64,000 bases of DNA from Chloroflexota bacterium (GTDB lineage: Bacteria; Chloroflexota; Anaerolineae; Anaerolineales; Anaerolineaceae). The stretch spans positions 53,710 through 117,709 of the forward strand of contig JAAYUC010000009.1 in the NCBI GenBank assembly GCA_012517865.1. Direction: 5' to 3'. The notes under the pieces are model-generated. The model did not search any database and was not told the origin of the DNA. It saw only the letters and a list, made by a program, of their open reading frames with translations. Shown here one piece after another: positions 44,132 to 53,759 of the stretch; within the stretch, counting starts at the first letter, position 1, and every line of letters starts with the position of its first letter. Made by a program: the position numbers and the translations under genes.

Positions 44132-44161
44132 GGCATCCCCAAAACCGGGGATGCCTTTTTT
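44132..44161 (+). terminator. Terminator of lpdA
   Basis: GGCATCCCC/GGGGATGCC with a 6-base loop and a TTTTTT tail. Confidence 0.9.
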
Positions 44162-44249: not shown

Positions 44250-44378
44250 ATGGGAGTTGGGCTGTCTGAGAACCATCTGGTAGTTCAACATCCGGAAACA
44301 CGGCGAATGACGGCAATTGACTCTGTCCGCTGTTCAAACACACTGCCGCGCGCCTGCTTCAGAGGAATTCAGGGTTAG
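44250..44378 (+). CDS. Possible 42-residue leaderless upstream ORF
   Basis: This ORF is too short for the track. It starts MGVGLSENHLVVQHP and stops at a TAG 12 bases before the ATG of the first operon gene. Its ATG lies six bases after an extended -10 box and has no Shine-Dalgarno sequence. The peptide has no recognisable domain. It could be a leader peptide that couples translation to the next gene, whose own ribosome site is poor, or it could be chance. The position and spacing are what make it credible. Confidence 0.35.
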   Translation: MGVGLSENHLVVQHPETRRMTAIDSVRCSNTLPRACFRGIQG

Positions 44379-44390
44379 TTGGGGTCTCTC

Positions 44391-45155
44391 ATGATAGAAG
44401 GGATGAGTAACGTTGACTTGCTTTCGCTTGCGATTGTGCTGCTGGCACTGCTCAGCCTTGGCCTGAATTTGTTAATCCACCGGAAATACCCCTACCGTTG
44501 CTTAAGAAAAAACGACGCGCTTTTGGACGCGGAAAAACTGATGCACGCGGCTGCCGAGAAGGGGCTGCGGCTTACCATTGGCCTGGGTGCCAATCCAAAC
44601 AACAGCGTTCCCGCACCGGCAAGCCTGGCCGGGCTGCCTGTGCTGCGATTGATGACCATGCGCTCTGTCTTCAACGACCGTCCCGCGCAGGCGCTGTCGG
44701 GGGATGGGGCGCTGGCCAGCCTCAGTCAGCTGATTGTGCGCGGAAAGTACCAAAACGCGCTCGCGACAGAACTATTCAAACCCGATTTTGGACTGCTGGC
44801 AGGCGCGGCCCCATACGCCTATCTGGCCGGCCTGCTGCCCGAAGTGAATTACCGCGCCAACGCGGGCGTTTTTCTGATTGGCAGGCACCGGCCTGAAACG
44901 CTCCTGGCCGCGAATTTGGCGGATCAGAAAGGAATCCCGTTGGTGGCCGGCAGCGATGAGCTCAGCACGCAGGCGGTTCTTTTTGCTACCAACGCCCGCC
45001 TATGCCTGGGTGAGGACGCGCTCTATGCTGGCGCGGCCTTGGAGACAGACGCAAGTGCGGCGGCCGCGCTGCGCGCGCAGGATTGGCTGCGGGTGCTGGC
45101 CGCGCTCGGACTGCTGGCAGGCGCGGTATTAAAGCTGCTGGGGGCGTGGCCGTGA
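44391..45155 (+). CDS. Membrane-anchored protein of unknown function (DUF6754-like)
   Basis: The product has 254 residues. The track start is a TTG at 44379. The ATG at 44391 is more likely, and another ATG at 44403 is possible. It has an N-terminal membrane span (about 9-28, LLSLAIVLLALLSLGLNLLI), a soluble alpha/beta domain of about 190 residues (LTIGLGANPNNS ... AGVFLIGRHRPETLLAANLADQKGIPLVAGSDELSTQAVLFATNARLCLGED), and a C-terminal span. The soluble part reads like an arrangement of sensing or binding strands with no catalytic signature. I recall a Chloroflexi domain family of this kind (DUF6754) but cannot confirm it here. First gene of a six-gene operon. Confidence 0.6.
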   Translation: MIEGMSNVDLLSLAIVLLALLSLGLNLLIHRKYPYRCLRKNDALLDAEKLMHAAAEKGLRLTIGLGANPNNSVPAPASLAGLPVLRLMTMRSVFNDRPAQALSGDGALASLSQLIVRGKYQNALATELFKPDFGLLAGAAPYAYLAGLLPEVNYRANAGVFLIGRHRPETLLAANLADQKGIPLVAGSDELSTQAVLFATNARLCLGEDALYAGAALETDASAAAALRAQDWLRVLAALGLLAGAVLKLLGAWP

Positions 45156-45766
45156 AAAAGACCCTCCCGATTTTGGTTGCAGTGCTGACGGCTGTGTTTA
45201 TTCTTGCGGCGCTCATCCTGCGGCCCCAGCTGAACGGTTGGTTGGATGTCGTGCTGAATTGGGCGGTGGTCACTGCCTCAGCCGCGCTGCTGGTGGCGGT
45301 CGCCACCCTGCTATTAACGCATTTGCGTGCCATCCTTCGCGGTCAGCGCGGCTTTATCTACAGCATTATTCTCATCAGCGCTTTTTTGGTCAGCTTTATA
45401 GGCGCGCTGGTGCTGGGACTGGAAAACAGCGCTTATTTGCGCTGGGTGGCTGCTGTTCAGCTTCCCTTGGAGACGAGCTTGCTTGGCCTGGCAGCGCTGG
45501 TGATGACCGGCGCCGCGCTGCAAATTTTCCGCAGCCGCGGCTGGTCGCTATTGACGATTTCCTTCGGAATCAGCGCGCTGGTCTTTTTGGTTATTTCTCT
45601 TGGGCTGCTGCAAGCACTCAATATTCCTTTATTAAGCACCGTCATCGCCTATCTGCAGCGGCTGCCTCTGATTGGAGCGCGCGGTCTGTTAATTGGCATT
45701 GGCATCGGCGCCCTTTTGACGGGCCTGCGCGTTTTGTTCGGTTTGGAAAGAAGCTGGGGTGAATAG
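45152..45766 (+). CDS. Polytopic membrane protein, unknown function
   Basis: The product has 204 residues from the GTG at 45152, which overlaps the previous stop (GTGA). The track's 23 extra N-terminal residues are not credible. There are about six hydrophobic segments covering almost the whole chain. Polar residues inside membranes are few. There is no transporter signature. It ends directly against the ATG of the zinc-ribbon gene (TAG then ATG). Its place between two proteins with soluble extracytoplasmic domains suggests a subunit of a membrane complex. Confidence 0.6.
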   Translation: MKKTLPILVAVLTAVFILAALILRPQLNGWLDVVLNWAVVTASAALLVAVATLLLTHLRAILRGQRGFIYSIILISAFLVSFIGALVLGLENSAYLRWVAAVQLPLETSLLGLAALVMTGAALQIFRSRGWSLLTISFGISALVFLVISLGLLQALNIPLLSTVIAYLQRLPLIGARGLLIGIGIGALLTGLRVLFGLERSWGE

Positions 45767-47584
45767 ATGAGCGCGGAGATGATTCAATGTCCGCACTGTG
45801 GGAAGGACAACCTTCCACAGGCCACGCGCTGCGTTCACTGCGGCAAAGATTTAGATAACCTCTTTAAAATCGAAGGTGCCGAGGCGGATGCCGGACTGCC
45901 GGAAGAACCGGAAATTTCCGTTTCGGACCTTTTAAGAACCTTCCGGCAGGAGGAAGACAGCCAGGCTGAGGAGCACAGGCCGGCTGTTTCCAGCGGGCCA
46001 AGCGCCGTTTTTGCCTCGCGCGAGGATACCCCGCGGGCGGAAACACCTCAGGAAGAAGAACAGGCGCCCGAGTGGCTCATCCGCATACGCAAACGCGCCA
46101 TGCAGGAAGAGGACGCTGCCGGAGAGCTTTCGCGTAAATTTAACTCATTGGAAGCCTCCCGCAGCCAGGAACATCAGGGGCGCGTGGACGAAGAGTTCGC
46201 GAACTGGATTGCCCGCATCCGGGAGAACGCCCGCCGGGAGAACCTGCAGGCTGCCAAATCCGCGCAGGCAGGCTCTGAAAGTGAGGGCGGCGTGCCGGAG
46301 TGGCTGCGCCGGGTCCGCGAACTGCAGCCTGAAGGCCTGGAGGAAAACCAGGCGGTTCAGGAAGAACCCGAAGAACCCCGCGCGGAAGAACCGGAGCAGG
46401 AAAAAGAACTGCCCGCAAAAGCTGAACAGGCGCAGGCGCAAGAGGCTGAATCCGTTGTCGAGAGCGGCCCGGAGGAGGCGATAGAAACTGCTGAGCCGGC
46501 CCCGGACGCGGAAGGCGCAGGAGAGCCGCCGCTCTCCGGCCACGAGACCGGCGCCGAAACCCCGCCCGCGGAAGAACCCACTGAAAGCCCGAAAACCCCG
46601 GAAATTAAGCCGGTAATAGAAGAATTGGGCCTCGCGTCGGAAGTCAGCGCGCTGGACCTGGAAGAAAGACCAGCCTCGAGCGAAACGCTTTCGGCTGACT
46701 TGCTGCTTTTGCGCAAACAGAAAGAAAGCGCGCAAATTCTGATGAACCTGATTGGCGAGGAGGGCAAAGGCCTTCCGCCTGCCAAGACCCCGCGTGAAGG
46801 TTCCAGGGGCTGGTATCGGTTCATTCTGGGCGCCTTCCTGCTGCTGGTGCTGATAGCTGTCATTGTGTTTGTCCCGCAGGCCAGGCCGGCAACCTACGAG
46901 AACCCCACGCCAGCCGTGGCCCTGAAAGACGCGCTGAACGCTTTGAAGAACGGCGATAAAGTTCTTGTTGTGCAGGAATATCAGGCCGCTGCCAGCGCTG
47001 AGATGGAGCAGGTCAGCGCTCCGGTTCTGCGCGCTTTGGAGGAGCGCGGGATTGCGCTGCAGTTCCTGACCACGCACCCCAACGGTTTGTGGCTGAGCGC
47101 TAATTTAATGAACGCGGCAGAAATCCCCGCGCGCGAGACTGCCTATCTGGCAGGCGGGCGGCTGGGTGTGCTGACGGCAGCGCTGCTTGCTGATGAATCC
47201 AGCGCCATGCTTCCGGAAGGGCTTGAAAGCCTGGAAAACTACCAGCTAATTCTCCTCCTGGAAGACTCCCAGGCGGATATTCAGAACTGGATTGAACAGG
47301 CCGGACCCTGGCTGGGGGCAGGTAAACTGGGAGTGCTGGCAAGCAGTCAGAATGCCGCGCTGCTGCTTCCTTATTATGACGCTGGCCAGCTGGCTGGTTA
47401 CACGGCGGGGGCGCTGGAGGGGCGCGTTCTGGCCGCGGCGCTGGGGCAGACTGCCTCCACCGGCATGCCGCTGCGGGCGTATCAGGCCGGCTTGCTGGTG
47501 ATGATCGCCGTGCTGTTGCTGGGCATTATCATTAAGGCGGAAGCTGATTCCAACGCCCGGCATCAAAAGGAGCCGGAAGGATGA
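45767..47584 (+). CDS. Zinc-ribbon membrane protein with WL-R repeats
   Basis: The product has 605 residues. The N-terminus is a four-Cys zinc ribbon (IQCPHCGKDNLPQATRCVHCGKDL). Residues 45-330 are acidic and probably disordered, with three copies of a W-[IL]-x-R-[IV]-R motif (EWLIRIRKRA, NWIARIRENA, EWLRRVRELQ). A membrane span lies near 348-368, then a domain of about 200 residues related in style to the first operon gene (VLVVQEYQAAASAEMEQV ... YLAGGRLGVLTAALL), and a second span near 580. The zinc ribbon and repeats would be cytoplasmic and could dock partners. Confidence 0.65.
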   Translation: MSAEMIQCPHCGKDNLPQATRCVHCGKDLDNLFKIEGAEADAGLPEEPEISVSDLLRTFRQEEDSQAEEHRPAVSSGPSAVFASREDTPRAETPQEEEQAPEWLIRIRKRAMQEEDAAGELSRKFNSLEASRSQEHQGRVDEEFANWIARIRENARRENLQAAKSAQAGSESEGGVPEWLRRVRELQPEGLEENQAVQEEPEEPRAEEPEQEKELPAKAEQAQAQEAESVVESGPEEAIETAEPAPDAEGAGEPPLSGHETGAETPPAEEPTESPKTPEIKPVIEELGLASEVSALDLEERPASSETLSADLLLLRKQKESAQILMNLIGEEGKGLPPAKTPREGSRGWYRFILGAFLLLVLIAVIVFVPQARPATYENPTPAVALKDALNALKNGDKVLVVQEYQAAASAEMEQVSAPVLRALEERGIALQFLTTHPNGLWLSANLMNAAEIPARETAYLAGGRLGVLTAALLADESSAMLPEGLESLENYQLILLLEDSQADIQNWIEQAGPWLGAGKLGVLASSQNAALLLPYYDAGQLAGYTAGALEGRVLAAALGQTASTGMPLRAYQAGLLVMIAVLLLGIIIKAEADSNARHQKEPEG

Positions 47585-48264
47585 ACCCGATGGATATTGT
47601 TCTGGGCTTCATTGGCATTGCCTTATCAGTGATGATATTCAGCTATCTGTTAGGCGATAATTTCTTCTTTCGGGTGGCGCTCTATATTCTGGTGGGGGTG
47701 TCCGCTGGCTATGGAGCGGCCGTCTTACTGCTCAAGGTGATTATTCCGCGCCTGATTGAACCTTTGAAGGAGAGCGGGACGGACGCCTTTTGGCTGGGAT
47801 TGGTTCCGCTGGCTCTGTGCCTGCTTTTGGCGCTGATGCTCGTGCCGCGCACAGTCAGAGCGGGAACCCTGCCGCTGTCCTTCCTGGTCGGGGCGGCCGC
47901 GGCGGTGGGCATCGCCGGGATTTCCCGCGGGACGCTCGCGCCCCAGCTTCTGGCTGTTGTGAACCGCTTCAGCCCTGAATTGCTGCTGGAAAATTCGGCC
48001 GCGGATTGGGGCGGTATCGTGGAAGCGTTTTTCATACTTTTTGGGGTAATCTCAGTGCTGTTCTATTTTCACCACCGCTTAAGCAGAAAAGGCGCCGGAA
48101 CACAGCGGCCGCTGCTGGTGGAAGGAATTTCCGATGTGGGACAGGTTTTTCTGGGCATCAGCTTTGGGATGCTCTTTGTTGGTTTTTACAGCGCGGCGCT
48201 GACCGCGCTAATCGCGCGGATAGTCTGGCTGAAAGATTTTATCCTTGCCCTTTTAGCCGGATAA
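47581..48264 (+). CDS. Polytopic membrane protein, unknown function
   Basis: The product has 227 residues. The ATG overlaps the stop of the zinc-ribbon gene (ATGA). There are about six membrane spans. A longer loop (FSPELLLENSAADWGG) and a cytoplasmic HHRLSRKGAGTQRP segment separate spans. It is similar in size and shape to the 204-residue membrane protein of the same operon, so the two may pair. No family is recognised. Confidence 0.6.
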   Translation: MNPMDIVLGFIGIALSVMIFSYLLGDNFFFRVALYILVGVSAGYGAAVLLLKVIIPRLIEPLKESGTDAFWLGLVPLALCLLLALMLVPRTVRAGTLPLSFLVGAAAAVGIAGISRGTLAPQLLAVVNRFSPELLLENSAADWGGIVEAFFILFGVISVLFYFHHRLSRKGAGTQRPLLVEGISDVGQVFLGISFGMLFVGFYSAALTALIARIVWLKDFILALLAG

Positions 48265-48277
48265 AGGAAGACAGGCG

Positions 48278-49975
48278 ATGGAAACCCGCAGAAGCTTGAG
48301 CGTGGATATTGGTTCACAAAACACGCGCGCGTGGCTTTTTGAACAGCGCGAAGACGGCTTCGTGCTTGTTGGCAGCGCCAGCAGCGAGACAAGCGCTGCG
48401 GCCGGAGAGGACATTCGCGGCGGCGTGATTCAGGCGCTTGAGCGGCTTCAGGAAAAAGCCGGCCTTCGCCTGCTGGACCTGAAGCAGAAACTCATTCGCG
48501 GCGCGGAAGGCGTGAGTGTTTGTGGACTAAGCCTGTCGGCTGGCAAACCCATCCGAACCGTTCTGATTGGCGTCTCCGACACCTATTCTCTGGCTGTGCT
48601 GCGCAGGCTGGTCAGTCTGTTTTACACCGATGTGGTTCTGGAAATTGACCTCCAGGATGACTTGAACGCTACCGCCCAGCTGGAAAAATTAATCCACGCG
48701 AACGCGGACCTGTTTGTGACGGCCGGCGGCGTGAACGACGGCGCGTTCCGCCCGGTGCGGGCCGCGTTGGACAATTTGCGTGTTGTCTATCAGAGCCTGC
48801 CCAGGCTCATCCGGCCGCAGCTTGTCTACGCGGGAAACGAGGCCTTGGCGGAGTACGCTCGGGAGGAACTTGACGCGGGTGAGGATTTCCACAGCGCGCT
48901 GAACGTACAGGCCAGACTGGAGGCTGAATCGTTGGCGGCTGGCTGGCCGGCAATGCTGGGCGCTTTCAGCCGCCTGCGCCGGCAGCAGTTGACAGGTCTG
49001 GCGGAACTGGAAACGGAATGGAACTGCACGGCTCTGCCCAGCGCTTTCGCGGTAAGCCGAATTGTGCGACTGATTGACCGCATGAATCCCGAAGGCAAGG
49101 GTGCCATGGCTTTGGATGTGGGATGCAATTCCACCATCGTTATCGCGGCGCGCGGGGATGATTTCATTGGCGCCATCAGCCACCCTCCCATCTCTGCGCA
49201 GGTTGGCAAAGAGACCAGCCGCTTTTCCACACTGCCCATCGATGCGACGACGGCCGCGGCGTATATGTTTAACAAAAAACTGCACCAGGCCTTCCTGCCT
49301 GCCACTTTGGAAGACCTTGCCATTGAACAGGCCTGGACGCGGGTGCGTTTGCACTACGCGCTGCGCCGCACGCGTGAACTCTTCCCTTGGTTCGCGTACG
49401 ACCCCGAAATGGGGCTGCTGGAACCCTACGAACCGGTGCTGCTCTCGGGGGAGAGCCTGGTGCGGGTTCCTGCCGCGCAGCAAACATTGTTGATGGCATT
49501 GGATGGACTGCGCCCGCACGGTATCACCACCTTCGCGATGGATAAAGACCAGCTGCTGGCTGGGCTTGGCAGCCTGGCGGATAAAGAGCCGCTGCTGCCT
49601 GTGCAGGTGATTGATTCCGGCGTGTTTGCGAATCTTGGCACCGTGATTTGCGCCGATGCCCCCGAACGCGCAGCGAAGCGGGTGCTGACCCTGGAAATTG
49701 ACCGCGGAGAAGGCGCGCGCGAGAATTTGGATGTGCGCAAAGGCGAAATTAAGCGGGTGGAAACAGCCCCGGGCACCAGCACGCGCATTTACCTTTCCCC
49801 GGGCGAGCTGACTGACGTCGGGATGGGCCTGCCCGGCCTGGGAGGATGGGTTACGGTGCCAGAATCGGAAGTGGGCACTGTCATCGACGCGCGCGGCAGA
49901 CCGCTGGACCTGCCTGACGATATGAACAAACGCAGCGAAGCTTTTTACAACTGGCTGTGGGAACTGGGCGGTTAG
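48278..49975 (+). CDS. MutL-like ASKHA ATPase (glutamate mutase L family-like)
   Basis: The product has 565 residues. AAGGAAG lies upstream. Two ASKHA phosphate loops are visible: LSVDIGSQNTRAWLFEQ at residue 6 and MALDVGCNSTIVIAARGDD near 275. This is the fold of actin, Hsp70 and the MutL/DdrA-type reactivating factors of adenosylcobalamin mutases. Database convention would name it glutamate mutase L. No mutase gene is nearby. The C-terminal 120 residues look beta-rich (VLTLEIDRGEGARENLDVRKGEIKRVE). It is likely the energy-using part of the membrane assembly encoded by this operon. Confidence 0.65.
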   Translation: METRRSLSVDIGSQNTRAWLFEQREDGFVLVGSASSETSAAAGEDIRGGVIQALERLQEKAGLRLLDLKQKLIRGAEGVSVCGLSLSAGKPIRTVLIGVSDTYSLAVLRRLVSLFYTDVVLEIDLQDDLNATAQLEKLIHANADLFVTAGGVNDGAFRPVRAALDNLRVVYQSLPRLIRPQLVYAGNEALAEYAREELDAGEDFHSALNVQARLEAESLAAGWPAMLGAFSRLRRQQLTGLAELETEWNCTALPSAFAVSRIVRLIDRMNPEGKGAMALDVGCNSTIVIAARGDDFIGAISHPPISAQVGKETSRFSTLPIDATTAAAYMFNKKLHQAFLPATLEDLAIEQAWTRVRLHYALRRTRELFPWFAYDPEMGLLEPYEPVLLSGESLVRVPAAQQTLLMALDGLRPHGITTFAMDKDQLLAGLGSLADKEPLLPVQVIDSGVFANLGTVICADAPERAAKRVLTLEIDRGEGARENLDVRKGEIKRVETAPGTSTRIYLSPGELTDVGMGLPGLGGWVTVPESEVGTVIDARGRPLDLPDDMNKRSEAFYNWLWELGG

Positions 49976-49976
49976 G

Positions 49977-51032
49977 ATGGCGACGGAAATCCTTGCAATT
50001 GCCTGCGATCAACAAATTCTGCGAACGTACGCCCTGCCTTTTGCCGGCAGCGTGTTGGTACGCACCGGTCAGGAGGTTTCCGCCGGTGAACCTATCGCGG
50101 AAATTAAGATGCCTGAGCGCTACCAGGTTTTTGATGTAGTCAACGGATTGAAGATTAACCCGAAGCACATCGACCGCCACATTGAACGATTGGTAGGTGA
50201 ACCCGTGAAAGCCGGCGATGTGGTAGCGCAAAAGACGGGCCTGATTTCCCGCATTTTCCGCGCCTCGCAAAATGGCATGGTAGTCGCTGTGCGGGACGGC
50301 AGGATTACGTTGGCTTTGGGCGAAAAGAAACTGCAGGTGCTGGCCACTTATCCCGGCACCGTTGTGGAAATTATCCCGGAACGCGGGGCTGTTGTGGCTG
50401 TCCAGGGGATGCTTTTGCAGGGTGTATGGGGCAACGGTTTAAACAGCTCCGGGGAGTTGGTAATCCTTGACGCTGAAGCCCACTCGCCAGACAAGAAAAG
50501 GCCGTCCGGCGACCTGCAGGGGAAGATTGTCGCGGCGCAGCACGCGGCCGATTTGGAATCCTTTGCCAGCCTGCTGAATCGCAAACCCGCCGGCTTGGTG
50601 CTTGGCTCGGTGATGCCGGAGGTGCAGCCCGCTCTGCAAAATGCGCCCGTGCCCGTGATGCTTTTGGTCGGTTATGGCGAATTTGAAATTGACGCGCTCA
50701 GCGCGGCGATGCTCCGGCAGATGGAAGGCCAGTTCGTCTATCTAAACGCGAATGAACCCGACCCTTCGGAACACAGCCGTCCGGACCTGATTCTGCCAGG
50801 AAAGGCGCAGGTCTCTCCGGGGTTGTTTCACGAGGAGCTGCGTCTTGAGGTCGGCAAGCACGTGCGTCTGCTTGGCAAACCTTACACCGGCAACACTGGT
50901 GTCATCGTGGAACTGCCGGAGGAACCGGAAAAGTTTGCCAGCGGGTTGGTTATGCGGGCTGTGGTCGTACAGCGCGAGGATGAGCAGATTATCCGCATCC
51001 CGCGTGAAAACGTTGAATTGATTTTGGAATAA
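49977..51032 (+). CDS. Beta-rich protein with swivel-like domain, unknown function
   Basis: The product has 351 residues. The ATG follows the preceding stop by one base (TAGgATG). The N-terminal 150 residues resemble a barrel-sandwich hybrid (lipoyl/biotin-like swivel): LPFAGSVLVRTGQEVSAGEPIAEIK and GEPVKAGDVVAQKTGL. No modifiable MKM or DKx lysine motif is obvious. A central part (GKIVAAQHAADLESFASLLNRKPAGLVLGSVMP) may be alpha/beta. The C-terminus (VGKHVRLLGKPYTGNTGVIVELPEEPE) looks like a KOW-type small barrel. Last gene of the operon. Function unknown. Confidence 0.6.
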   Translation: MATEILAIACDQQILRTYALPFAGSVLVRTGQEVSAGEPIAEIKMPERYQVFDVVNGLKINPKHIDRHIERLVGEPVKAGDVVAQKTGLISRIFRASQNGMVVAVRDGRITLALGEKKLQVLATYPGTVVEIIPERGAVVAVQGMLLQGVWGNGLNSSGELVILDAEAHSPDKKRPSGDLQGKIVAAQHAADLESFASLLNRKPAGLVLGSVMPEVQPALQNAPVPVMLLVGYGEFEIDALSAAMLRQMEGQFVYLNANEPDPSEHSRPDLILPGKAQVSPGLFHEELRLEVGKHVRLLGKPYTGNTGVIVELPEEPEKFASGLVMRAVVVQREDEQIIRIPRENVELILE

Positions 51033-51037
51033 GCCTG

Positions 51038-52222
51038 CTATTTGGCGGGGGTGGCGGTAATCAGAAAGCGGGCGGATACCCATCCGATTTTTCCATCCTG
51101 CAGGCGCACCTTTTCCCAGTACATACCGTCCTTTTCCACCCTCTCTCCCAGAAGCACAACTTCGGTCAGGTCGTTCAGGTATGTGACCACGCTGGCTGTG
51201 CTGCCTGGTTCGGAGCGCACAATCACGCCGGTATCCGAGCGAATCAGAGCGCTGACCAGGGTGGGGGTGGGAGTGATGCTGGGCAAAGCGGTGATAAGCG
51301 GATTTTGAATATTGGCGGTCGGCGTGGCGGGCTTCGCGGTGGGGGGCAGCGGCGTTCGCGTGGGCGGCGCGACTGCTGCCGGCTGGGTGGGAGTGCCGAC
51401 TGGAGGCGGAGTGGTGTTGACGGCTATTGCCTGGCTCAGATGATGCTGGGTCGAGAGAAAACCAAACAGCGCCAGCGCGCTCAGGCCAATGGCCAGAATG
51501 AAAAGCGCCCAGCCAGCCGTTCGGCGCGGCAGGAGCCCGGCTGCCCAGAATGTGACCAGAGCGCACAGGAGCGCAACAGCCGCATAGGCGGCGCACAGCA
51601 GAAGCAGCCCGGCGCTGGTGTATGGAGAACCCGACTGCAGCGCCCAGCCTGCCAGGCCCAGCGGAAAGAATATCAGGGCTGTTACCAGGGCGGATGCCAA
51701 GCGGGGCGTTTCCCGCTGGCGGATGAGCATGGCTGCCAGGAGAGCGCTGCCAAGCAGCAGCACCGCCCATTCCAACCAGCCGTGCTCAAGCAGATGCAGG
51801 AAGGGCAGCTTGGCGGCGGAACTTACCCGGGAGGGCGCGAGCGCGGAGAGCCAGCCAGCCCCAAAATACACAGCGGCTGTGAGCAGCAGCGCGGCAAACG
51901 AGCGCAGCATCAGCCCCCAGGATGGGATGACCGCGCTGAGCGTCAGGCCCATCAGCGGAGCGTTGAATGGCGCGCACAGCAGGGCTGCCAGCAAAAGCAA
52001 GGGGGAGTTGGTCAGGAGGGCTGCGCCCAGGAGAAGCGCGCTGAGTGCCAGCGTGACAAAATAAACGGGATTCAACGCGGTTTTTGGCTGCAGGTCGTCG
52101 TGCAAAAAGCCTGCAATCTCCGCTTCAGAGGCGCTGCGGATAATCAGACGCATACGCCGCTTCTGGTTGGGAGGCAGACTGTTAAACCCATCCGGATTGG
52201 TCTGACTGGTAGGTATATTCAT
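51038..52222 (-). CDS. DUF389-like membrane protein with SH3 domain
   Basis: The product has 394 residues. About six to seven membrane spans lie within residues 50-260. The stretch LLLAALLCAPFNAPLMGLTLSAVIPSWGLMLRS matches the DUF389 pattern. A Pro/Thr-rich linker (about 270-315) leads to a C-terminal bacterial SH3 domain (VIVRSEPGSTASVVTYLNDLTEVVLLGERVEKDGMYWEKVRLQDGKIGWVSARFL). Such SH3b modules usually bind cell-wall peptides, so the tail is probably outside. It is convergent with the 44-51 kb operon, with five bases between the stops. Confidence 0.75.
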   Translation of the reverse strand: MNIPTSQTNPDGFNSLPPNQKRRMRLIIRSASEAEIAGFLHDDLQPKTALNPVYFVTLALSALLLGAALLTNSPLLLLAALLCAPFNAPLMGLTLSAVIPSWGLMLRSFAALLLTAAVYFGAGWLSALAPSRVSSAAKLPFLHLLEHGWLEWAVLLLGSALLAAMLIRQRETPRLASALVTALIFFPLGLAGWALQSGSPYTSAGLLLLCAAYAAVALLCALVTFWAAGLLPRRTAGWALFILAIGLSALALFGFLSTQHHLSQAIAVNTTPPPVGTPTQPAAVAPPTRTPLPPTAKPATPTANIQNPLITALPSITPTPTLVSALIRSDTGVIVRSEPGSTASVVTYLNDLTEVVLLGERVEKDGMYWEKVRLQDGKIGWVSARFLITATPAK

Positions 52223-53687: not shown

Positions 53688-53759
53688 GCCGGCGTAGCTC
53701 AATGGTAGAGCAACCGCCTTGTAAGCGGTAGGTTATGGGTTCGATTCCCATCGTCGGCT
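53688..53759 (+). tRNA. tRNA-Thr(TGT)
   Basis: Acceptor GCCGGCG/CGTCGGC (one G-T pair), anticodon loop CTTGTAA (TGT), T-loop TTCGATT. CCA is not encoded. First of a tRNA trio before tuf. Confidence 0.95.

Follow-up and report, generated by a model that had tools for sequence, protein, structure and literature searches.

A conserved six-gene block of Chloroflexota with a MutL-type ASKHA protein and a repeated tryptophan peptide

What does a protein of the MutL family do in a block of membrane-protein genes, when GlmL/MutL proteins are thought to maintain or reactivate cobalamin-dependent mutases? The question is raised by six genes, here g1 to g6, in a 64,000-nucleotide stretch of a Chloroflexota genome of the family Anaerolineaceae (assembly GCA_012517865.1, contig JAAYUC010000009.1, forward strand, positions 53,710 to 117,709), which we call the window. 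An earlier note, made from the letters of the window alone, had described the six genes as a lineage-specific set in which the MutL-like ASKHA protein (g5) energises or assembles a membrane complex. We found that the block is kept as a unit, that it splits into a cytosolic pair (g5-g6) and a membrane set (g1-g4), and that the disordered arm of g3 holds a peptide motif that is strongly enriched in relatives. Tentatively, we read the block as a single assembly in which the pair would bind the arm.

Gene order across Chloroflexota

The six genes span 44379-51032 on the forward (+) strand, with successive spacings of -10, 0, -4, +13 and +1 bases. All six open reading frames of the earlier note were found, and the overlaps or 0-13-base gaps it gave resolve into overlaps of 4 and 10 bases and gaps of 0, 1 and 13. 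Its start for the block, 44250, was too early, in that the open reading frame from the ATG at 44250 closes at TAG 44376-44378. Transmembrane segments are abbreviated TM below.

44379 (TTG; alternative ATG 44391)-45155, +: g1, DUF6754 protein (PF20539, 44.7 bits against a cut-off of 27)
45146-45766, +: g2, about six TM segments, outside known families, kept in 61/61 complete loci
45767-47584, +: g3, zinc ribbon, disordered motif-bearing arm, TM, extracytoplasmic domain, TM
47581-48264, +: g4, polytopic, 6-7 predicted TM segments, family consensus SYl.GDN.lFR
48278-49975, +: g5, MutL/GlmL-type ASKHA protein (PF13941, 108.8 bits against a cut-off of 27)
49977-51032, +: g6, barrel-sandwich, swivel (aconitase X small-subunit-like) and KOW

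Family searches and TM prediction agree with the domains previously assigned to g5 (MutL-like ASKHA) and g6 (swivel/KOW-like) and with polytopic g2 and g4. For g2 and g4 the family searches gave nothing above cut-off, and a weak DUF2231 match in g4 fell below it.

Searching our genome collection with a g5 profile returned 80 loci, which are the best matches and hence biased towards Anaerolineae; every one is labelled Chloroflexi/Chloroflexota or a group inside. The order g1-g6 on one strand was present in every locus with a contig that spans the block (61/61, the window counted). A further 19 loci end at a contig edge, and the single exception (L095; L numbers denote loci and G numbers genomes) has only g5-g6. 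Homologues of g6 were found in 57/61 relatives. Because the order is the same in all complete loci, the block is a conserved module rather than a local oddity, which bears out the earlier view that the six genes form one set; homologues were not scattered singly across genomes. The earlier idea of lineage specificity does not hold in the sense of a small lineage, given that 149 of the 251 Chloroflexota genomes sampled had g5 matches, although the membrane part is narrower.

Within the collections and papers searched, we found no known system of which the block would be a variant. No paper describing the block, or giving DUF6754 (PF20539) a function, emerged from the literature search. DUF6754 had no match in a plasmid search or in 14 control genomes, other phyla lying outside the search, and no convincing solved relatives were found by sequence. 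A role in anti-phage defence was rejected after none of the six proteins matched a PADLOC model at E<=0.1.

The membrane set and its repeated peptide

The clearest signal within the membrane set lies in g3, whose features in the window are as follows.

45788-45841, +: zinc-ribbon Cys motif, CPHCGKDNLPQATRCVHC (Zn_ribbon_3, E 3.4e-5, just below cut-offs)
46067-46090, +: linear motif, copy 1, PEWLIRIR (residues 101-108)
46199-46222, +: linear motif, copy 2, ANWIARIR, degenerate (residues 145-152)
46295-46318, +: linear motif, copy 3, PEWLRRVR (residues 177-184)
46877-47476, +: extracytoplasmic domain of ~200 residues between two TM, family consensus with DY, GYlpGG and SAQ..P

The three copies correspond to the W-[IL]-x-R-[IV]-R motifs already seen in the window. 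Judged against related sequences, they are the remnant of a strongly enriched motif, [ED]-[LIV]-P-[DE]-W-[LM]. Across 54 g3 proteins, the disordered arms contain 269 occurrences of [LIVM]PxW[LIM] versus 1.6 in shuffled linkers, and 393 of 607 arm Trp residues (65%) fall in PxW[LIMV]. Whole g3 proteins hold 587 motifs versus 22 expected, and the consensus of 447 motifs is [ED]-[LIVT]-P-[DES]-W-[LM]-x-x-[LMI]-R. The zinc-ribbon protein does look like the scaffold it had been taken for, far more clearly in relatives, one of which reaches the maximum of 43 copies, than in the window.

The motif also occurs away from the membrane genes. Some distant genomes (e.g. L125, L132, L138) encode a motif-bearing, g3-like zinc-ribbon protein that adjoins g5-g6 and has no extracytoplasmic part. 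A DNA-pattern search in four other genomes identified a second motif protein, unlinked to the block, with tetratricopeptide repeats (TPR) at both ends and 4-19 copies between them (e.g. L147:5641-8724 on the - strand, L148, L150). The motif was present in this TPR protein at all nine loci examined. The protein is spread over Anaerolineales families but was not found in the window's genus, where g3 is down to 1-3 copies, and is likewise missing from G050, which belongs to that order and lacks g6. Parallel loss of the TPR protein with g3 motif copies or g6 fits one system, but it amounts to one or two evolutionary events and does not have the weight of a statistical test.

In form, the motif recalls the C-terminal tail of FtsZ, with which it agrees at the aliphatic, Pro, aromatic and Leu positions. 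FtsA, itself an ASKHA protein, recognises the FtsZ tail DIPAFLR (PMC4117426, PMC3418248), and within the tail of the E. coli protein, DIPAFLRKQAD, I374 and L378 are critical (PMC4117426). FtsZ tails in these Chloroflexota genomes read D-[LIV]-[DNE]-[ILV]-P-[ATPS]-F-[LIM]-R (e.g. DLDIPAFLRRR). The likeness is one of resemblance only, as the g3 motif is not a C-terminal [DE]-[ILV]-P-x-F-L-R sequence borne by a tubulin homologue. The parallel extends to the partners, in that an ASKHA-fold protein is encoded beside proteins with acidic-aliphatic-Pro-x-aromatic-Leu peptides. However, g5 is not FtsA by sequence, the g3 peptides are internal, multivalent and Trp-based, and the genes for true FtsA and FtsZ lie at other places in the genome. 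All 30 genomes tested contain FtsZ, often in two copies with intact tails, and an FtsA-family match, while SepF had no match in any of the 30. The idea that g5 is the phylum's missing FtsA was rejected since true FtsA is present.

By charge, the zinc ribbon and motif arm of g3 lie inside the cell and the ~200-residue domain outside. Two proteins with extracytoplasmic domains had been proposed; g3 retains that assignment as the bearer of the sole large extracytoplasmic domain, whereas g1 does not. In g1, TM helices at ~44409-44477 and ~45051-45137 enclose a Rossmann-like alpha/beta domain, which the AlphaFold2 (AF2) model renders with high confidence (predicted local distance difference test, pLDDT, 93.7; predicted template modelling score, pTM, 0.85). 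There are no K/R residues before the first TM helix and five within the 15 residues after it. We place this domain inside the cell because of the positive-inside rule, so the DUF6754 domain is probably cytoplasmic. DUF6754 is a family without known function, and the g1 fold had no match in the PDB below 1e-3. Comparison with hhalign gave no homology between the g1 domain and the g3 extracytoplasmic domain, nor between g2 and g4.

The cytosolic pair g5-g6

The block splits into two modules, a cytosolic pair of g5 and g6 and a membrane set of g1-g4. Across the 251 Chloroflexota genomes g5 was found in 149 and g6 in 145, with both in 137, g5 only in 12, g6 only in 8 and neither in 94 (p 4e-45 with relatedness ignored, the counts depending on E-value limits). 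By comparison, g1 was found in 6/25 hand-picked genomes, all six of which carry g5 and g6. The pair g5-g6 is thus the core with the broader range, to which the membrane set is a narrower addition. Linkage is not absolute: g6 lies far from g5 in six genomes, and in a group of genomes that keep g1-g5 in a row it is present at another site. At five loci with g6 unlinked from g5 (L165-L169), the genes after g6 code for a GAF/response-regulator histidine kinase and another response regulator, and at least four of these loci also have an ATP synthase operon following.

The match of g5 to MutL (PF13941) covers residues 7-446 and was its only match at E<=1; the FtsA profile (PF14450) did not match. 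The features of the protein in the window are listed here.

48305-48328, +: phosphate motif DIGSQNTR, intact
49115-49135, +: phosphate motif DVGCNST, intact
49616-49972, +: C-terminal domain past the MutL match, with invariant columns in the alignment
49874-49915, +: best-conserved motif of g5, G.VIDARGRP, inside the C-terminal domain

The PF13941 match and the ASKHA phosphate motifs, retained in ~50/58 family members and decayed in ~8, liken g5 to the MutL/GlmL family. It differs in its extra C-terminal domain, its constant partner g6, the absence of a mutase association and its scores far under the GlmL cut-offs (TIGR01319/NF040745 level models, 24.3 versus 204 for the subfamily and 30.8 versus 475 for the equivalog). 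Basic-aromatic tails of the KKRGFFRRK or GGWRRFFGRK type, possible membrane-binding ends, terminate g5 in L122 and L126 and the g3-like protein in L125 and L132.

The AF2 model of g6 (pLDDT 89.4) contains an N-terminal barrel-sandwich, a swivel resembling the aconitase X small subunit and a C-terminal KOW domain, with Foldseek matches to 7cnr_B, 2do3 and NusG. Barrel-sandwich- and KOW-like profile matches were all below family cut-offs. These domains are similar in sequence or fold to the RnfC N-terminal barrel-sandwich, the aconitase X swivel subunit and the Spt5/NusG KOW, but their three-domain order matched no known protein. The RnfC_N score was below cut-off (23.0 versus 25.6 bits), and the single Cys in the window's g6 means that it has no RnfC-type Fe-S sites. 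A match to a lysozyme repeat (9.8e-8) was dismissed as a coincidence involving a 30-residue WGNG stretch.

Around the block, a strong intrinsic-terminator-like hairpin with a T run (44132-44155, +; 9 pairs, TTTTTT tail) stands between g1 and an upstream dihydrolipoamide-dehydrogenase-like gene, ending that gene's transcription unit. Directly after g6 lies a convergent gene for an SH3_3-domain membrane protein (51038-52222, -), a relative of which is downstream of the block in 33/61 loci. In 40/61 loci (e.g. L069:12782-13360) a seventh gene, absent in the window, directly follows g6 on its 3' side. Its product has an N-terminal TM, a Thr/Pro-rich region and a C-terminal LP.TGF...TM...RRLR sequence resembling an LPXTG cell-wall sorting signal.

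Weighing the readings

Our preferred reading, which we hold tentatively, is that the block encodes one conserved Chloroflexota assembly of two modules, with peptides of the g3 arm bound by g5-g6 under nucleotide control. The membrane module would comprise g1 with its anchored cytoplasmic Rossmann-like domain, the polytopic g2 and g4, and g3 with an outer domain and a long disordered inner arm. The cytosolic module would be the constant pair of g6 and g5, an ASKHA protein of MutL type whose C-terminal domain extends past the MutL match. The g3 arm may serve as a multivalent docking platform of [ED]-[LIV]-P-[DE]-W-[LM] peptides, to which g5-g6 could bind in a nucleotide-dependent way, modelled on FtsA with the FtsZ tail. 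The TPR-motif-TPR protein might compete for, or share, the g5-g6 reader, and the state of g5 would then set clustering or release of membrane complexes. Our leading candidate for the reader is g5-g6, since the pair has a motif protein next to it whether or not the membrane genes are there.

Several observations weigh against this proposal. In ~8 relatives, mostly close to the window, the nucleotide motifs of g5 have decayed, yet the block is kept, with all six genes wherever the contig covers them. Nucleotide control can therefore not be universal, and it is doubtful that the ASKHA protein generally energises the membrane complex, as had been suggested earlier. Six distant g5-g6 loci (L133, L134, L135, L137, L139, L140) have no motif protein within the DNA examined. 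FtsA itself is an alternative reader given its family match in all 30 genomes, and the support from co-occurrence shifts with the E-value limits used.

Membership of g5 in the MutL family invites the explanation that the g5-g6 pair keeps a cobalamin-dependent mutase active or restores its activity, in the manner proposed for GlmL/MutL. In 12/61 loci (L052, L059, L063, L064, L071, L073, L076, L080, L085, L092, L096, L097), genes that encode a MeaB-like GTPase and a mutase subunit of the B12-binding kind are found upstream of g1 in divergent orientation, which we read as neighbourhood in one part of the order. Nonetheless, methylmalonyl-CoA mutase (PF01642, the only mutase in this test, with glutamate mutase outside it) was present in 121/149 genomes with g5 and 78/102 without (odds ratio 1.33, Fisher p 0.43, 251 genomes), and 28 of the 149 had no PF01642 match. 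The window's genome has one mutase, sited on another contig. With membrane proteins as neighbours and a GlmL equivalog score far below its cut-off, mutase maintenance was rejected on the genome distribution of PF01642 and is very improbable; in line with the earlier note, the ASKHA protein shows no tie to a cobalamin mutase, nor does its gene always sit with one. A membrane transporter or export machine driven by ATP hydrolysis on g5 is also quite improbable. The block would suit such a machine in combining two polytopic proteins with an extracytoplasmic domain and a protein of ATPase fold, but family searches gave no transporter match and several relatives retain the block with a decayed nucleotide site.

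It is doubtful that g1-g4 and g5-g6 are two independent systems sharing a transcript in Anaerolineae. Ten of the 25 chosen genomes have g5-g6 without g1, and g6 is not adjacent to g5 in six others, as independence would allow. Yet g5 and g6 are present wherever g1 was found, the order is unbroken in all complete loci, and g3 bridges both modules, with motif-bearing g3-like proteins adjoining g5-g6 even where membrane partners are missing. Division or septum machinery, in which a Trp version of the FtsZ tail on g3 and the TPR protein is shown to FtsA or an FtsA-like g5 and ties an envelope complex to the Z-ring, is unlikely. The positional match to a tail that FtsA binds is in its favour, as are the single EIPDFLR copies held by each of three TPR-motif proteins and the presence of FtsZ and FtsA without SepF in every genome tested. 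Several distant g5 proteins end in basic-aromatic tails such as KKRGFFRRK, which are reminiscent of the FtsA membrane tail. Against division, the likeness is resemblance only, F-type copies are scarce in g3 (6 versus 1.1 expected), no division gene adjoins the block, and FtsA and FtsZ are also present in genomes without g5-g6 (e.g. G064, G090).

A broader proposal is that g5 and g6 read a multivalent ELPDWL code, related to the FtsZ tail, on a membrane complex and a TPR hub, as a phylum-wide scaffold organising the Chloroflexota envelope or septum; we regard this extension as rather unlikely. No protein of the block has a known role, but its intactness in every complete locus, small (~1.9 Mb) genomes included, is usually a sign of important function. 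The genome distribution of g5 disposes of the easy mistake of inferring cobalamin-mutase chemistry from a MutL-type protein. The ELPDWL repeat provides a concrete handle, through which these unknown membrane genes can be approached as a testable problem of a reader and its peptide.

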